64,000 bases of DNA from Devosia sp. YR412 (GTDB taxonomy: Bacteria > Pseudomonadota > Alphaproteobacteria > Rhizobiales > Devosiaceae): contig NZ_FOFL01000006.1 of NCBI RefSeq assembly GCF_900110945.1, positions 124,001 through 188,000 on the forward strand, written 5' to 3'. Positions 9,346-13,938 of the stretch are shown in pieces. Numbering within the stretch: position 1 is the first letter of the stretch; each line of letters begins with the position of its first letter. The position numbers were made by a program, and so were the translations under genes. A model generated the notes under the pieces. The model was not told the DNA's origin, searched no databases, and was given only the letters and a program-made list of their open reading frames with translations.

Positions 9346-10068
9346 CTAGAGGCTGGGACGCGGTTCCCAGCCGGTCAGCGCCAGTTCCCAATCGGGGAAC
9401 CAGGTGAGCAGCAGGATCTGGATCTGACGGTCCCAGCCAAAGAAGATGGCGAGGCCTGTCAGCACCAGGATGGCGCCAAGCACCTGCTGGATGCCGCTGG
9501 CGTTTTGCTGGAACCAGCCGAGCCGGCGCACCAGCTGGCGGCCGCCGAGCATGATGGCGGCCATCGGCAGGGCCGTGCCGAGTGAGAAGGCCAGGGTCAC
9601 CGCCAGCGCACCGGCATCGACCTGCTGGTTAAGCGCCAGGGTAATGACCGAGGCCATGATCGGCCCGACGCAGGGGCTCCAGGCGAGACCCAGGCCAGCG
9701 CCAATCGCCAGCCCGCCGCCAAAGCCCGAACCATTCTGCGGCACCGGCAGCCTGCTCGCGAGGTTGCCTGCCAGGCGCTCGAAGCCGCGATGCAGTGGCG
9801 GCAGGGCCAGCACGAGACCGAGCAGGATCAGCACCGTACCGGCCAGCAGGCGATTGAGATCGGGCGGCACGCCGAGCGCGCGGACTAGGTAGCTCAGCGC
9901 CAAAGTGGCCAGGGTGAAGGATGCAACAAAGCCGACGATCAGCCCGATCGGGCGCGCCCTGCCCTCTTGCGCGGCGGAGCCGAGAATGACCGGGAGCAGC
10001 GGCAGCACGCAGGGCGACAGCACCGTGATGATGCCGGCGAGGAAGGCAAAGCCAATGGTGACGAGCAT
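9346..10068 (-). CDS. CcdA/SoxV-like membrane thiol-disulfide electron carrier
   Basis: Integral membrane protein of 240 residues with six hydrophobic helices that moves reducing equivalents from cytoplasmic thioredoxin to periplasmic thiol proteins (CcdA/DsbD-beta/SoxV family). The two redox cysteines are in the family motifs SPCVLP (about residues 18-23) and SPCVGP (about 131-136). It is downstream of, and 5 bases from, a secreted thioredoxin-like protein on the same strand, the arrangement of soxV-soxW. No sox oxidation genes or cytochrome c maturation genes are in the window; the divergent rhodanese and YeeE genes point to sulfur handling rather than cytochrome assembly. Confidence 0.85.
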   Translation of the reverse strand: MLVTIGFAFLAGIITVLSPCVLPLLPVILGSAAQEGRARPIGLIVGFVASFTLATLALSYLVRALGVPPDLNRLLAGTVLILLGLVLALPPLHRGFERLAGNLASRLPVPQNGSGFGGGLAIGAGLGLAWSPCVGPIMASVITLALNQQVDAGALAVTLAFSLGTALPMAAIMLGGRQLVRRLGWFQQNASGIQQVLGAILVLTGLAIFFGWDRQIQILLLTWFPDWELALTGWEPRPSL

Positions 10069-10073
10069 ATCTG

Positions 10074-10484
10074 TTAGCTGGCGCTATTGCTGTTGAGGCC
10101 GTCAACGCCGCCGCTGTTCCAGGATTTGACGCCATTGCCCTGCGCATCGAGCAAAACGAACGTGTCCTGATAGGTCACGCCGAACTTGCCCTTGAGGGCG
10201 GCTTCCTTGTCATAGTCGGCAATCACCAGCGTCAGGTCCGGGTCGACCTCGTCGAAGCGGGCATTGAGCTCGGTAATGGTGGCGCGGCAATTGGGGCACC
10301 AGGCCGCATAGAAGAACACCACCGTCTTGCCGGCCGCCGCCAGCTCATTGACCTGCGCCTCGCTCTGGAAATCGATCACCGCGGCGCGCGGCGCAGCCTG
10401 TTCGGTGGCGGCCTCCTGCGCAAAGCCGGAAAGCGGCAGGACGGCGAGTGCGAAAGCAACGAGGAGACGGAGGATCAGGGTCAT
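10074..10484 (-). CDS. Periplasmic thioredoxin-fold protein (SoxW-like)
   Basis: Small secreted thiol-disulfide protein of about 136 residues. Start chosen at ATG 10484 (MTLILRLLVAFALAVLPLSG), which gives an ideal signal peptide cleaved near GFAQE; the open frame reaches back to 10565 but the extra residues look like shadow sequence. The active site is FFYAAWCPNCR, i.e. CPNC in the usual thioredoxin position, with a later TYQDTFVLLD segment before the final strands. Immediately followed by the CcdA/SoxV-like carrier, its likely reductant. Substrates could be the rhodanese or the Cys-rich repeat protein of the divergent operon; this is inference. Confidence 0.83.
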   Translation of the reverse strand: MTLILRLLVAFALAVLPLSGFAQEAATEQAAPRAAVIDFQSEAQVNELAAAGKTVVFFYAAWCPNCRATITELNARFDEVDPDLTLVIADYDKEAALKGKFGVTYQDTFVLLDAQGNGVKSWNSGGVDGLNSNSAS

Positions 10485-10701: not shown

Positions 10702-11619
10702 ATGCGTCTCACCCTCGCTGGCGCCGCCATGGCCGCCGCACTGCTGTTCACCGGCGCTGCCCATGCCGAGCGCCTCACCGAGCAGCCGCTGGTCGATAGC
10801 GCCTGGCTCAAGGACCATCTCGGCAACCCAAGCCTGGTCGTGCTCGACATCCGCGACGCGACCGATGCCGGCGATCTCTATGCCGCCGGCCACGTCCCCG
10901 GCGCCGTTGCTGCCCCCTATGCCGCTTCGGGCTGGCGCGCCAAGGTCGGCGATGTCCCCGGCCTGCTGCCTACCGAAGACGCTATCGAAAAGCTGGTTTC
11001 CGGCCTCGGGGTTTCCAATGACAGCCATGTCGTGATCCTGACCGGCGGCGCCAATGCTTCCGACTTCGGTGGCGCCACCCGTGTCTACTGGACCTTCAAG
11101 GTCTATGGCTTTGACAATGTCTCGATCCTCGACGGCGGCTATGCGGCCTGGACCAAGGCCAATGGCGAACTCTCGACCGATGCCGTGACCCCGGTTGCCG
11201 CGACCTTTGACGCCGCCTTCCGCCCGGAACTGCGCGCTGAAGTTGCTGAAGTCAACGAAGCCATCGCCAATGACGTGAACCTGATCGACGCCCGTTCGGT
11301 GGCCCAGTTCATCGGCCAGGAAAAGACCAATACCGTTCAGGCGCTGGGCCACATCCCGTCGGCGGTCAACATCAACTTCGACAAGTTCTATGATGCCGAA
11401 AAGCCGGCTTTCGCCAGCGCCGACGTCATCGCCCAGCTGGCCAAGGCTGCCGGCGTCAATGACAGCGAAGGCTTCATCTCCTTCTGCAACACCGGCCACC
11501 TCGCTTCCATCGCCTGGTTCGGCCTGTCGGAAGTCGAAGGCCTGCCGAATGTGCGCCTCTATGATGGTTCGATGTCCGACTGGACCTCGGATCCGAGCCG
11601 CCCGGTTGTCACCAACTGA
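10702..11619 (+). CDS. Periplasmic sulfurtransferase with two rhodanese domains
   Basis: Thiosulfate/3-mercaptopyruvate sulfurtransferase-type enzyme of about 305 residues that moves sulfane sulfur via an enzyme persulfide. Start at ATG 10702 (AAGGAG 6 bases upstream) gives a signal peptide ending ...AAHAERL, so it should act in the periplasm. The first rhodanese domain (about 30-155; WLKDHL, VVLDIRD, HVPGAV) is structural; the second ends in the active loop with Cys262 in FCNTGHLAS. The loop lacks the CRKGVT or CGSGVT form of classical thiosulfate or mercaptopyruvate enzymes, so the donor is uncertain. It leads an apparent operon with a YeeE transporter, the NPCA-repeat protein and an unknown protein. 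Confidence 0.87.
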   Translation: MRLTLAGAAMAAALLFTGAAHAERLTEQPLVDSAWLKDHLGNPSLVVLDIRDATDAGDLYAAGHVPGAVAAPYAASGWRAKVGDVPGLLPTEDAIEKLVSGLGVSNDSHVVILTGGANASDFGGATRVYWTFKVYGFDNVSILDGGYAAWTKANGELSTDAVTPVAATFDAAFRPELRAEVAEVNEAIANDVNLIDARSVAQFIGQEKTNTVQALGHIPSAVNINFDKFYDAEKPAFASADVIAQLAKAAGVNDSEGFISFCNTGHLASIAWFGLSEVEGLPNVRLYDGSMSDWTSDPSRPVVTN

Positions 11620-11692: not shown

Positions 11693-12904
11693 ATGACTGA
11701 TACGACCGCGGGCCAATTGCGTCCGGCCCCCATTCCCTTCGATCACGGCCCGGTCTGGTTCGCCAGCCTGGCGCTGGCTTTGGGCACCTTCTCCATCTGG
11801 CAGTTGGTCGACCTGCGACAGGCGGCGCTGTTCCTGATCGGCAGCCTGATGGGCCTGACGCTTTATCATGCCTCCTTCGGTTTCACCGGCGGCTGGCGGC
11901 GGTTTGTCGTCGAACAGCGCGGCCATGCCATGCGCGCACAGATGCTGATGATCGGCGTCGCCGCACTGGCCTTTATTCCGCTGCTGACGCTGGGCAATCC
12001 CTTCGGCATGCCGCTGGCTGGAGCGACGGCCCCGGTTGGTGTCTCAGTCTTGTTCGGCGCGGCGCTGTTCGGGCTCGGGATGCAGCTGGGCGGCGGTTGC
12101 GGTTCGGGCACGCTGTTCACCGTTGGTGGCGGCAGCAGCCGCATGCTAGTGACGCTGGCCTTCTTCATCATCGGTGCCCTGCTGGGCACGGCGCACCTGC
12201 CTTTTTGGCTGACCCAGCCATCGCTGCCGGCAATCAGCCTCGGCACCAGCCTCGGCGTGCCGCTGGCCCTGGTCGTGACCTTCGCCGGTCTCGCTGCGGT
12301 GGCTGCCATCACCATCTTTGTGGAACGCCGCTCGCATGGCAGTCTCGAAGTGATCAAGACCCCAGCCAATCGCGGCTGGACGCGCTTTTTGCGTGGTCCC
12401 TGGCCACTGATCGGCGCCGGTCTGGCGCTGGCCGGGCTCAATATCCTGACGCTGCTGGTGGCCGGCCATCCCTGGTCGATCACCTATGGTTTTGGCCTCT
12501 GGGGCGCCAAGATCGCCCAGGCCGTCGGCGTGCCCGTGGCCAGCTGGGAATTCTGGACCTGGCCAGCCCAGGCCCAGGCCCTGCAGGCCAGCGTGCTTGA
12601 AGACTCCACCTCGGTGATGGATTTCGGCCTGATCCTTGGCGCGGCGCTTGCGGCAGGTCTGGCCGGCAAGTTCGCCCCCAAGGCAGCACTGCCACTGCTG
12701 TCGCTGGTCGCCGCGGCGATTGGCGGCGTGCTGATGGGCTATGGCGCACGCCTCAGCTTTGGCTGCAATATCGGCGCGCTGTTCTCGGGCATTGCCTCGG
12801 GCAGCGTGCATGGCTGGCTGTGGTTCGCCGCGGCTTTCGTCGGCAGCCTCGGCGGTATTTTCGCCCGTCCCCTGTTCGGTCTCGATGGGTTCAAGTCCAA
12901 ATGA
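11693..12904 (+). CDS. YeeE/YedE-family sulfur (thiosulfate) transporter
   Basis: Polytopic inner-membrane protein of about 403 residues, fused two-half form of the YeeE/YedE (TsuA) family that imports thiosulfate or related sulfur compounds. Each half has the conserved Cys-containing signature: GLGMQLGGGCGSGTLF in the first and GARLSFGCNIGALFSGIASGS in the second; these cysteines line the sulfur path in characterised members. Start at ATG 11693, with GAGG 6 bases upstream; the frame could be read from 11639 but that region is the hairpin. The stop overlaps the start of the NPCA-repeat gene (ATGA), so the two are translationally coupled, which ties the repeat protein to sulfur transport. Confidence 0.88.
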   Translation: MTDTTAGQLRPAPIPFDHGPVWFASLALALGTFSIWQLVDLRQAALFLIGSLMGLTLYHASFGFTGGWRRFVVEQRGHAMRAQMLMIGVAALAFIPLLTLGNPFGMPLAGATAPVGVSVLFGAALFGLGMQLGGGCGSGTLFTVGGGSSRMLVTLAFFIIGALLGTAHLPFWLTQPSLPAISLGTSLGVPLALVVTFAGLAAVAAITIFVERRSHGSLEVIKTPANRGWTRFLRGPWPLIGAGLALAGLNILTLLVAGHPWSITYGFGLWGAKIAQAVGVPVASWEFWTWPAQAQALQASVLEDSTSVMDFGLILGAALAAGLAGKFAPKAALPLLSLVAAAIGGVLMGYGARLSFGCNIGALFSGIASGSVHGWLWFAAAFVGSLGGIFARPLFGLDGFKSK

Positions 12905-13332
12905 GCGCTCGTAATACGCTACTGTTCGGCGCTGCCGCCCTCGTCGCCACTGCCGCCGTCGCCGCCGACCACGTGACCAGCGCGGCCCGCGCGCCGGCAC
13001 CGGTTCCCGCCGCTGCTGCTGCGGCCAACCCTTGCGCGGCTGCTAACCCTTGCGGGGCAGCCAACCCCTGCGCTGCAGGCAACCCCTGTGCCGCGGGCAA
13101 TCCCTGCGCTGCATCGGCGCCGGCCAATCCCTGCGCAGCGAGCAATCCTTGCGCGGCGGGTGCTCCCGCAGCCGCGGCAAACCCTTGCGCCGCCGGTGCT
13201 CCGGCCGCCGCTGCCAACCCCTGTGCAGCCGGCGCACCCTGTGCCGCTGCGGCACCGGCCCCGGCGGCCAATCCTTGTGCGGCGGGTGCACCCTGTGCTG
13301 CGGTCAATCCCTGCGCGGCAAGGGCGCAATAG
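12901..13332 (+). CDS. Secreted NPCA-repeat cysteine-rich protein, function unknown
   Basis: 143 residues. MSARNTLLFGAAALVATAAVAADH is a signal peptide; a short Ala/Pro linker follows and then, from about residue 41 to the end, NPCAA-type units: 11 NPC motifs plus 2 APC, 13 cysteines in all and no other chemistry but Ala, Gly, Asn, Pro and a few Ser. There is no predicted fold and no His or Met. Start ATG overlaps the YeeE stop by four bases, so expression is coupled to the transporter. A periplasmic sulfane-sulfur or soft-metal (Cu, Zn) carrier or thiol buffer is a reasonable inference, kept reduced by the CcdA/thioredoxin pair encoded divergently. The family was not recognised by function. 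Confidence 0.8.
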   Translation: MSARNTLLFGAAALVATAAVAADHVTSAARAPAPVPAAAAAANPCAAANPCGAANPCAAGNPCAAGNPCAASAPANPCAASNPCAAGAPAAAANPCAAGAPAAAANPCAAGAPCAAAAPAPAANPCAAGAPCAAVNPCAARAQ

Positions 13333-13341
13333 GAGGCGGGC

Positions 13342-13938
13342 ATGGACGCAGAGCGCGAGCGGGCAACGCAGGAAGCCGCGTTTTGCGAGCGGCTGCTCGC
13401 CAAGTCGGGCGAGAATGTGCTGCGCGAAACCCTGCGCGATGCGCCGGTCACCGCCTGGGAGCACTATCCGCCCGGCGACGTGTTCGACCCAGAAAGCGGT
13501 GGGCAGTGGTATTACCACTGCCACCTGCCGCCGGCCGATGACGTCGAGCACGGGCACTTCCACTGCTTCGTCCGCCCCGCGGGCGCGCAGGGTCCAGTGC
13601 ATCACCTGATCGCCATTGGCGTCGATGCCTATGGCAGGCTGCACCGGCTGTTCACGGTCAACCAATGGGTGGTCGGCGACGCCTGGCTCGATGCCGAGCC
13701 GACGATTGCGCTGCTGCCGCGCTTCGACATGCAGCTGGCCAAGCCGAGCTATCTGGTCAACCGCTGGCTGACCGCCATCGTGACGCAATACCAGTCCGAG
13801 ATCGAACAGCTGATCCGCGAGCGCGATGTGGCCCTTGCCGGGCATGCGGTGGGTGGGGACCTGGATGCCATGCGGCAGAACCGGGAATTTGAGGTGATGT
13901 CGTCGCTGGTGATTGGGGCACCGGCTAGGGCAGGCTAG
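13342..13938 (+). CDS. Conserved-looking protein with WYYHCH / HGHFHCF motif, function unknown
   Basis: 198 residues, soluble, no signal peptide. Start ATG 13342 follows AGGAGGCGGGC. The striking part is a His/Cys cluster at residues 56-76: WYYHCH (56-61) then HGHFHCF (70-76), with HH at 87-88; it looks like a metal-binding site. A tryptophan-rich middle (NQWVVGDAWLD) and an amphipathic C-terminal helix with YQSEIEQLIRERD follow. It begins 10 bases after the NPCA-repeat gene and is probably cotranscribed. From memory it may belong to the uncharacterised DUF6969 group, but I cannot confirm that. A role with the repeat protein (maturation, metal delivery) is only context-based inference. Confidence 0.75.
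   Translation: MDAERERATQEAAFCERLLAKSGENVLRETLRDAPVTAWEHYPPGDVFDPESGGQWYYHCHLPPADDVEHGHFHCFVRPAGAQGPVHHLIAIGVDAYGRLHRLFTVNQWVVGDAWLDAEPTIALLPRFDMQLAKPSYLVNRWLTAIVTQYQSEIEQLIRERDVALAGHAVGGDLDAMRQNREFEVMSSLVIGAPARAG

Follow-up and report, generated by a model that had tools for sequence, protein, structure and literature searches.

A cysteine-repeat gene overlapping a YeeE-type importer gene in Devosia, and its association with DUF6969 proteins

Results

Gene content of the locus

The window analysed here, 64,000 nucleotides of Devosia sp. YR412 (NCBI RefSeq assembly GCF_900110945.1, contig NZ_FOFL01000006.1, positions 124,001 to 188,000 of the forward strand), contains a gene for a cysteine-repeat (Cys-repeat) protein which overlaps the stop codon of a gene for a YeeE/YedE-family importer. 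Both lie on the plus strand in a closely spaced series made up of a rhodanese gene, yeeE, the Cys-repeat gene, a gene for a DUF6969 protein and then a SbcD-like gene, SbcD being our reading of the sequence. The features, numbered from the first letter of the window, are as follows.

9346..10068, minus strand: CcdA/DsbD_TM-type thiol electron transporter (PF02683, E 5.5e-10), divergent
10074..10484, minus strand: thioredoxin-like protein with WCPNC (PF00085, E 1.2e-8), divergent
10702..11619, plus strand: two-domain rhodanese-type sulfurtransferase (PF00581, E 7.8e-29), signal-like N-terminus by eye
11693..12904, plus strand: YeeE/YedE-family (Sulf_transp) importer (PF04143, E 2.1e-70)
12901..12904, plus strand: ATGA shared by the YeeE stop and the start of the Cys-repeat gene, read in the sequence; translational coupling likely
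12901..13332, plus strand: Cys-repeat gene; conserved hydrophobic N-terminal segment MSARNTLLFGAAALVATAAVAADH, then 13 xPC units
13342..13938, plus strand: DUF6969 protein (PF22308, E 1.1e-70), no signal-like N-terminus by eye

The open reading frame (ORF) of the Cys-repeat gene runs from an ATG at 12901 to a TAG at 13330-13332 and encodes 143 amino acids with 13 cysteines, in 11 NPC and two APC units; an initial annotation made from the DNA alone had given position, frame, start, length and unit counts correctly. It had also placed the ATG across the YeeE stop, and this is borne out by the sequence, in which the stop is the TGA at 12902-12904 and ATGA at 12901-12904 is common to the two genes. 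Its statement that the product has no aromatic residue or histidine is right from about residue 30 onwards, but not before, as Phe9 lies within the hydrophobic N-terminus and His24 just past the putative cleavage site between AVA and A. By eye the N-terminus is hydrophobic and carries AxA, and the product is probably exported. The annotation's description of the product, with thiols spaced along a chain and a gene coupled to that of YeeE, is supported.

Within the repeat, codons vary synonymously from unit to unit (AAC/AAT for Asn, CCT/CCC for Pro, TGC/TGT for Cys and all four codons for Ala) and three arrays recognised by Tandem Repeats Finder match at 69-78%, which argues that the amino-acid pattern has been kept while the DNA drifts. 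Recent DNA slippage as the sole source of the repeat was rejected, since the units differ synonymously. Long antisense ORFs across the repeat were taken as frame artefacts, and matches of the repeat to PDB sequences (FLVCR2, best E 0.0077) were judged to be low-complexity matches. The Cys-repeat protein matched no Pfam family at E up to 1 and likewise no NCBIfam model; neither the SoxY profile (PF13501) nor DUF2282 matched it, other bufferin types lying outside the models scanned. A second NPC protein was not found in the window's own genome, two weak matches (E 0.11 and 3.1) having been set aside.

The adjoining YeeE passes the PF04143 gathering score (238.2 bits against 27), and its Cys136 and Cys358 sit in the conserved motifs of the family. 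Its best NCBIfam match, the selenium-type YedE/FdhT, is far under its cut-off (111.3 of 350 bits), and the TsuA models NF052577 and NF041049 are not reached (61.3 of 400 and 33.8 of 645 bits). The rhodanese retains CNTGHLA in its C-terminal domain; its second-best NCBIfam match, ExtH, is also far under the cut-off (84.4 of 200 bits). DUF6969 passes PF22308 with 237.8 bits against 27, and its gene starts nine bases beyond the stop of the Cys-repeat gene, with which an AGGAGG overlaps. Among the six window genes scanned with Pfam and NCBIfam there was no YeeD-like match, and no MNIO (DUF692) enzyme was found among these six, the rest of the genome lying outside that search.

The Cys-repeat gene is retained behind yeeE across Devosia

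In order to follow the gene through the genus we used 75 genomes, of which 55 carry YeeE. The next ORF was read at the 54 YeeE loci fetched in addition to the window, and a Cys-repeat gene lies directly 3' of YeeE at 55/55 loci. It is intact at 52; at one (G002) the overlapping start is present and the frame breaks early, and at two (G022 and G056) the contig ends within the gene and the N-terminus matches. The ATGA overlap is kept by 51 of the 52 intact copies; in the remaining one (G042) the start codon lies 8 bases beyond the YeeE stop. A similarity search with the Cys-repeat protein (E up to 0.001) reached 37/75 genomes, which is an underestimate because the repeat changes, and gave no match in the 20 genomes that lack YeeE. 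The frame breaks seen in single genomes, in G002 as well as in G053 (DUF6969 fragmented) and G004 (YeeE in two frames), could be sequencing errors.

The N-terminus is strongly conserved across the genus, reading by eye MSxRNTLLFGAALxxxTAAIAxDH. Past residue 25 of the 52 intact proteins, 356 of 358 cysteines are preceded by proline. The cysteine position of [NAS]P-x-[AS]A units holds 337 Cys, three Ser and one Trp; other residues there (24 Ala, 13 Val, four Pro, two Thr and one Leu) were taken as spacers. NPC dominates in only one clade of the genus, other clades having APC or SPC and a Cys-poor clade a Pro-rich tail, and the repeat unit is therefore PC[AS]A rather than the NPCA initially annotated. 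For 12 genomes of the NPC clade (66 pairs), ratios of non-synonymous to synonymous substitution rates (dN/dS) were taken from the 20 pairs that aligned with at most 12 gaps, and lay between 0.02 and 0.10 in 18 of them, the other two being saturated; aligned pairs differ at 0-3 cysteine sites. The Cys-repeat sequence is under purifying selection at the protein level, and it is in the number of units that the proteins vary. The number of cysteines ranges from 2 to 16 among the intact proteins, the kind of variability that the initial annotation had taken as a possible sign of drift; the cysteines within units are nevertheless rarely replaced, which means that their number varies by gain and loss of units and not by drift.

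The linkage to sulfur genes that the annotation had proposed to look for is conserved. Besides YeeE, a rhodanese lies upstream on the same strand in 52/55 loci, all 52 copies having the C-x-TG motif, and relatives of the repeat in other taxa are fused to SoxA/TsdA-type cytochromes, as described below. The YeeE motifs GGGCG and GCN are present in 54/55 and 55/55 copies, respectively. The thioredoxin/CcdA pair, of which CcdA was among the neighbours that had been named, adjoins the cassette at only 16/55 loci; the divergent pair is kept at 12/12 genus loci whose protein has at least five NPC.

DUF6969 is linked to Cys-repeat genes within and beyond the genus

DUF6969 is found in 55/75 Devosia genomes, and the 20 genomes without it are the 20 without YeeE, judging from the two lists compared by eye; three of these 20 genomes are less than 80% complete. 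In G011, G019 and G033 DUF6969 is present elsewhere in the genome, unlinked to YeeE, and G001 has two copies, the second adjoining a second NPC cluster which includes an NPC-cytochrome fusion. Co-occurrence extends to a sample of 385 alphaproteobacterial genomes, of which 47 have this YeeE (E up to 1e-20), 90 have DUF6969 and 33 have both (Fisher p 2e-13, kinship not corrected). In an overlapping set of YeeE-carrying genomes of the class, checked separately, DUF6969 occurs in 25/29.

From the 90 genomes we chose roughly one DUF6969 locus for each genus, 60 in all, together with flanks of at most 4 kb, and compared them by means of our own regular expressions for ORFs with 20 control regions lying 50-100 kb away in 20 of the same genomes. 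A Cys-repeat ORF was flagged at 35/60 DUF6969 loci and 0/20 control regions; when the flags were checked by eye one (L328) proved a false positive, leaving 34, and the addition of L374 and L375 brought the number to 36. A looser Cys-window test was non-discriminating, with 6/25 unflagged loci and 6/20 controls positive. At loci from genomes without this YeeE, a Cys repeat is still present beside DUF6969 in 18/35.

In the phylum sample DUF6969 occurs in 20/398 Pseudomonadota genomes, at 21 loci, 11 of which have an ORF with at least three xPC within 1.5 kb; three more have, by eye, other Cys-repeat lipoprotein-like ORFs. At the DUF6969 locus of an Azospirillum plasmid (L402) an xPC repeat ORF was not found. 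The unit types beside DUF6969 differ, and include NPCAAK, APCAA, CGACGAC and CCAAEG, as well as KCAPKC on a Burkholderia glumae plasmid. Taken together, these linkage and co-occurrence counts show that DUF6969 is tied in the first place to Cys-repeat proteins and also, when whole genomes are compared, to YeeE. DUF6969, which the initial annotation had missed, is the partner most widely common to Cys-repeat proteins.

Two further kinds of neighbour were observed at the DUF6969 loci of the class. A gene of the FGE-sulfatase fold, with a signal by eye, lies near DUF6969 at 19/60 loci (L323, L324, L337 and 16 others), 16 of which also have a Cys repeat, and at 0/20 controls. FGE enzymes act on cysteines, and a second Cys-acting partner is thus possible. 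P460 occurs at 17/60 loci; at two loci, P460-like proteins with long CGACGAC-type repeats, not NPC, adjoin DUF6969 (L329:5771-7075 and L339:1645-2844).

DUF6969 combines conserved histidines with the lack of a clear fold match

The DUF6969 protein of the window begins MDAERERATQEAAF, in which no export signal was recognised by eye. Across 173 aligned sequences, five histidines (His59, His61, His72, His74 and His88 in window numbering) are invariant, as are Pro43, Gly71, Phe104, Asn107 and Arg161, while His41, Asp49, Glu69 and Asp162 are nearly so. As judged from the alignment, these residues look like a metal site. AlphaFold models of two DUF6969 proteins are confident (predicted local distance difference test, pLDDT, 94.1 and 94.9) and have an N-terminal helix, five strands which hold most of the histidines and a helical part. 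A Foldseek search of the PDB with the two models gave lowest E values of 0.38 and 1.1, and in VIA their best Z scores were 3.0 (root mean square deviation, rmsd, 7.9 over 85 aligned) and 4.9 (rmsd 4.0 over 76 aligned). Against viral predicted structures the lowest E for the window model was 0.12, and a PDB profile search returned a single match at E 0.71. As there is no clear fold match, no function can be transferred from the fold; missing matches do not prove that the fold is new. The term DUF6969 was not found in open-licence PMC text.

NPC repeats occur in several phyla and are fused to cytochromes

A scan for NPCAAxNPCAA gave at least 119 loci, many of which end at the end of a contig or stretch. 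Judging from 80 titles, those listed include loci from Alpha-, Beta- and Gammaproteobacteria, Rokubacteria, Nitrospinota and Tectomicrobia. Among the 119 listed loci, DUF6969 occurs at 58, YeeE at 24, a SoxA-like domain at 42 and P460 at 25, and at least one of these four at 90; none of nine families tested occurs in any of the 20 control regions. Repeats of the xPC or CGAC type are fused to every one of the 42 SoxA-like segments and to 23 of the 25 P460 segments, shares that are biased upwards by the selection for NPC. One representative of the fusions is SoxA-TsdA_cyt-c (PF21342, E 5.8e-7, 29.9 bits against 27), and a second is Cytochrome_P460 in Pfam. A search of open-licence PMC text for NPCAA-type strings returned only papers unrelated by title, and none that joins cytochrome P460 with NPC, repeat and cysteine.

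The arrangement behind YeeE is also found outside Devosia. In three Thalassospira loci (L171, L188 and L195) the same N-terminal type or repeat lies directly 3' of a rhodanese-YeeE pair. At class level, 29 YeeE loci other than that of the window were fetched. The form stands directly behind YeeE in L261, L262, L264, L265 and L283, and L263 has a short variant with three cysteines. YeeE identity is 63-67% in these six; the form was not seen in L266 (60% identity) or in less similar loci of the class, and L286 and L287 have an NPC gene nearby. On pSymA of Sinorhizobium medicae (strain ml29) a sulfurtransferase, YeeE, an unannotated Cys-repeat ORF, DUF6969 and a sulfate ABC binding protein follow one another in that order. 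The Cys-repeat ORF and DUF6969 are kept on pSymA of S. meliloti 1021 (L400), where the upstream match to YeeE is limited to its last 19 residues.

Other genes recur among the 119 listed NPC loci, namely a periplasmic-looking protein without Pfam match, which may resemble a cupredoxin (L156:2671-3207, minus strand), at 18, extracytoplasmic function (ECF) sigma factors (such as L196:2626-3264) at 17, and a protein in which a VTT membrane domain is joined to a pyridine nucleotide-disulfide oxidoreductase (L147:3357-5570, minus strand) at 12. On the Burkholderia glumae plasmid a sigma-70-family gene (L403:1752-2545) and zf-HC2 lie near DUF6969 and the KCAPKC-repeat ORF. These sigma-factor neighbours suggest stress-regulated expression. 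An arsenic theme on the same plasmid was rejected as not general, since relatives of its arsenosugar genes occur at no more than two of the 119 listed loci.

Discussion

The initial annotation had left open whether the Cys-repeat protein is a sulfur acceptor, a thiol buffer or a metal store, and of the three we favour sulfur. A rhodanese with an intact Cys loop, a YeeE with two conserved cysteines and an overlapping poly-thiol gene, all in one operon of a genome in which SoxY was not found, point to an arm for sulfur. According to the passages of PMC11073785, PMC10812762 and PMC11582611 cited here, thiosulfate or zero-valent sulfur is taken up through proteins of the YeeE family, and the members tested need their conserved cysteines. 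We therefore put forward a flexible poly-thiol arm which would pass sulfane sulfur to YeeE after being readied in the cytoplasm by DUF6969, a reading to which we give slightly less than an even chance of being right.

The module would have three parts, the YeeE importer, the Cys-repeat arm and DUF6969. The arm would lie on the outer face of the cytoplasmic membrane, anchored beside YeeE by its conserved N-terminus (RNTLLFGA...DH), which is more conserved than would be expected of a cleaved signal and thereby suggests a tether. Persulfides would form on its PC units with sulfane sulfur supplied by the periplasmic rhodanese, by thiosulfate or by polysulfide, and the loaded arm would offer this sulfur to the cysteines of YeeE for import. 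The cytoplasmic-looking DUF6969 would most likely act on the nascent Cys chain before export, by metal-dependent modification, protection or loading; such an action most simply accounts for its presence with differing unit sequences, and also in genomes without this YeeE.

A broader form of the proposal is more tentative, and we regard it as possible yet doubtful. DUF6969 may be the founder of an undescribed class of His-metal enzymes which modify or load exported Cys-repeat proteins (NPC, APC, CGAC, CCAAEG and KCAPKC), and the poly-thiol chains, whether they stand alone or are joined to cytochromes of the SoxA/TsdA and P460 types, may form a periplasmic sulfur relay feeding YeeE in Devosia, Thalassospira and Sinorhizobium.

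Several observations weigh against the three-part module. DUF6969 is absent from 14/47 class genomes with YeeE, and YeeE lies within 4 kb of DUF6969 at only 4/60 class loci, 25 of which carry no Cys-repeat flag. Neither the FGE-fold neighbours, at 19 of these loci, nor the P460 fusions indicate sulfur import. A SoxA-like segment is found at 0/60 of the same loci, and the SoxA-like representative described above also matches CCP_MauG (26.6 bits against 25.6). In the genus, 28 of the 52 intact Cys-repeat proteins have only 2-4 cysteines. SoxY-family carriers occur in only 5/75 Devosia genomes and not in that of the window; a classical Sox carrier is therefore unsupported in the genus.

The main rival to the sulfur arm is metal binding, in which the PC units would sequester periplasmic Cu(I), Zn, Hg or As(III) in the manner of a bufferin or metallothionein. 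DUF6969 would then be a maturase or would load the metal, and YeeE would belong to the operon for another reason. Densely spaced thiols would suit such a role, and there is a precedent, as passages of PMC12452194 describe exported Cys peptides with Sec signal peptides that are modified by MNIO enzymes, the copper-binding bufferins. The ECF sigma factors and VTT/FAD disulfide-reductase fusions of the NPC loci (17/119 and 12/119) point the same way, as do the arsenosugar genes adjoining DUF6969 on the Burkholderia glumae plasmid, relatives of which are, however, as rare among the NPC loci as stated above. The linkage seen within the genus, strict for YeeE and nearly so for rhodanese, speaks against metal, as do the SoxA/TsdA-like fusions, and the Pfam scan recognised no metal transporter among the six window genes or ten recurrent neighbour proteins. 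We consider this explanation unlikely, though to be taken seriously. A general periplasmic thiol-redox buffer or antioxidant, held reduced by the divergent thioredoxin/CcdA pair, would account for that pair standing upstream in the window and at all 12 genus loci with at least five NPC, and CcdA is found at 9/119 listed NPC loci. The pair is nevertheless present at only 16 of the 55 genus loci, the genomes of which all have YeeE and DUF6969, and CcdA lies beside DUF6969 at 1/60 class loci, similar to the controls (1/20); we find a redox buffer improbable.

It could also be that DUF6969 is not a maturase at all, but a cytoplasmic acceptor or oxidase of sulfur imported by YeeE, with the Cys-repeat protein as an accessory of YeeE only. 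The identical presence of YeeE and DUF6969 over 75 genomes fits this, as does their co-occurrence in the class (33/47 and 25/29), and in E. coli YeeE depends on YeeD as an essential partner, according to the passages cited from PMC11073785. Nevertheless, 57 of the 90 class genomes with DUF6969 do not have this YeeE, DUF6969 adjoins Cys repeats at 18/35 loci from such genomes, and the repeat types beside it differ (NPC, CGAC, CCAAEG and KCAPKC), so that an acceptor role seems about as improbable as the redox buffer. Low-complexity drift without function has in its favour that repeat number and the Pro-rich tail vary strongly among clades; against it stand the dN/dS values of 0.02-0.10, the PC context of 356/358 cysteines, the rarity of Ser and Trp at the unit position (3 and 1 beside 337 Cys) and the retention of the gene at 55/55 loci, and we reject it as hardly credible.

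The sulfur arm, if correct, would bear on how sulfur reaches importers of the YeeE/SoxT type. Transfer from a periplasmic carrier to a SoxT-type YeeE is a proposal only in the passages of PMC11582611 cited here, and a poly-thiol protein encoded by an overlapping gene offers a direct and testable answer; it may represent a means, so far undescribed, by which sulfur is carried on the outer side of the inner membrane. DUF6969 gains a functional context from its company of Cys-repeat proteins, which are of several unit types, and if it does modify cysteines, MNIO enzymes would not be the only route to exported Cys proteins that are modified. Some copies are found in tractable rhizobia (Sinorhizobium pSymA).

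By the tests made, the Cys-repeat module belongs to neither the SoxYZ nor the bufferin systems. It recalls YeeE-YeeD (TsuA-TsuB) in combining a YeeE-family importer that has conserved cysteines with a dedicated partner gene, but the coupled partner here is a Cys-repeat protein plus DUF6969, and the TsuA models are far below cut-off. The selenium-type YedE/FdhT and the ExtH rhodanese, the closest and second-closest NCBIfam models of YeeE and rhodanese respectively, are equally remote. Bufferins resemble the module in the genetic link of a multi-Cys protein, exported in bufferins and probably so here, to a partner that carries putative metal ligands, an MNIO enzyme in the passages of PMC12452194; the partner here is instead DUF6969, without a significant PDB sequence match or clear fold match, and the repeat protein, lacking a DUF2282 match, is linked to YeeE and to SoxA/TsdA-like cytochromes. 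SoxY has one carrier cysteine, whereas the repeat is of low complexity with many, and without Pfam match. The likeness to SoxYZ lies in a periplasmic protein thiol which holds sulfane sulfur near a YeeE-family importer, as proposed here for the repeat, and in the association of SoxA-type cytochrome domains with its relatives; the arm would present sulfur to YeeE in a manner like that proposed for the delivery of SoxYZ-bound sulfur to SoxT. By analogy, then, the module would be SoxYZ-like in its working and bufferin-like in its genetic design.

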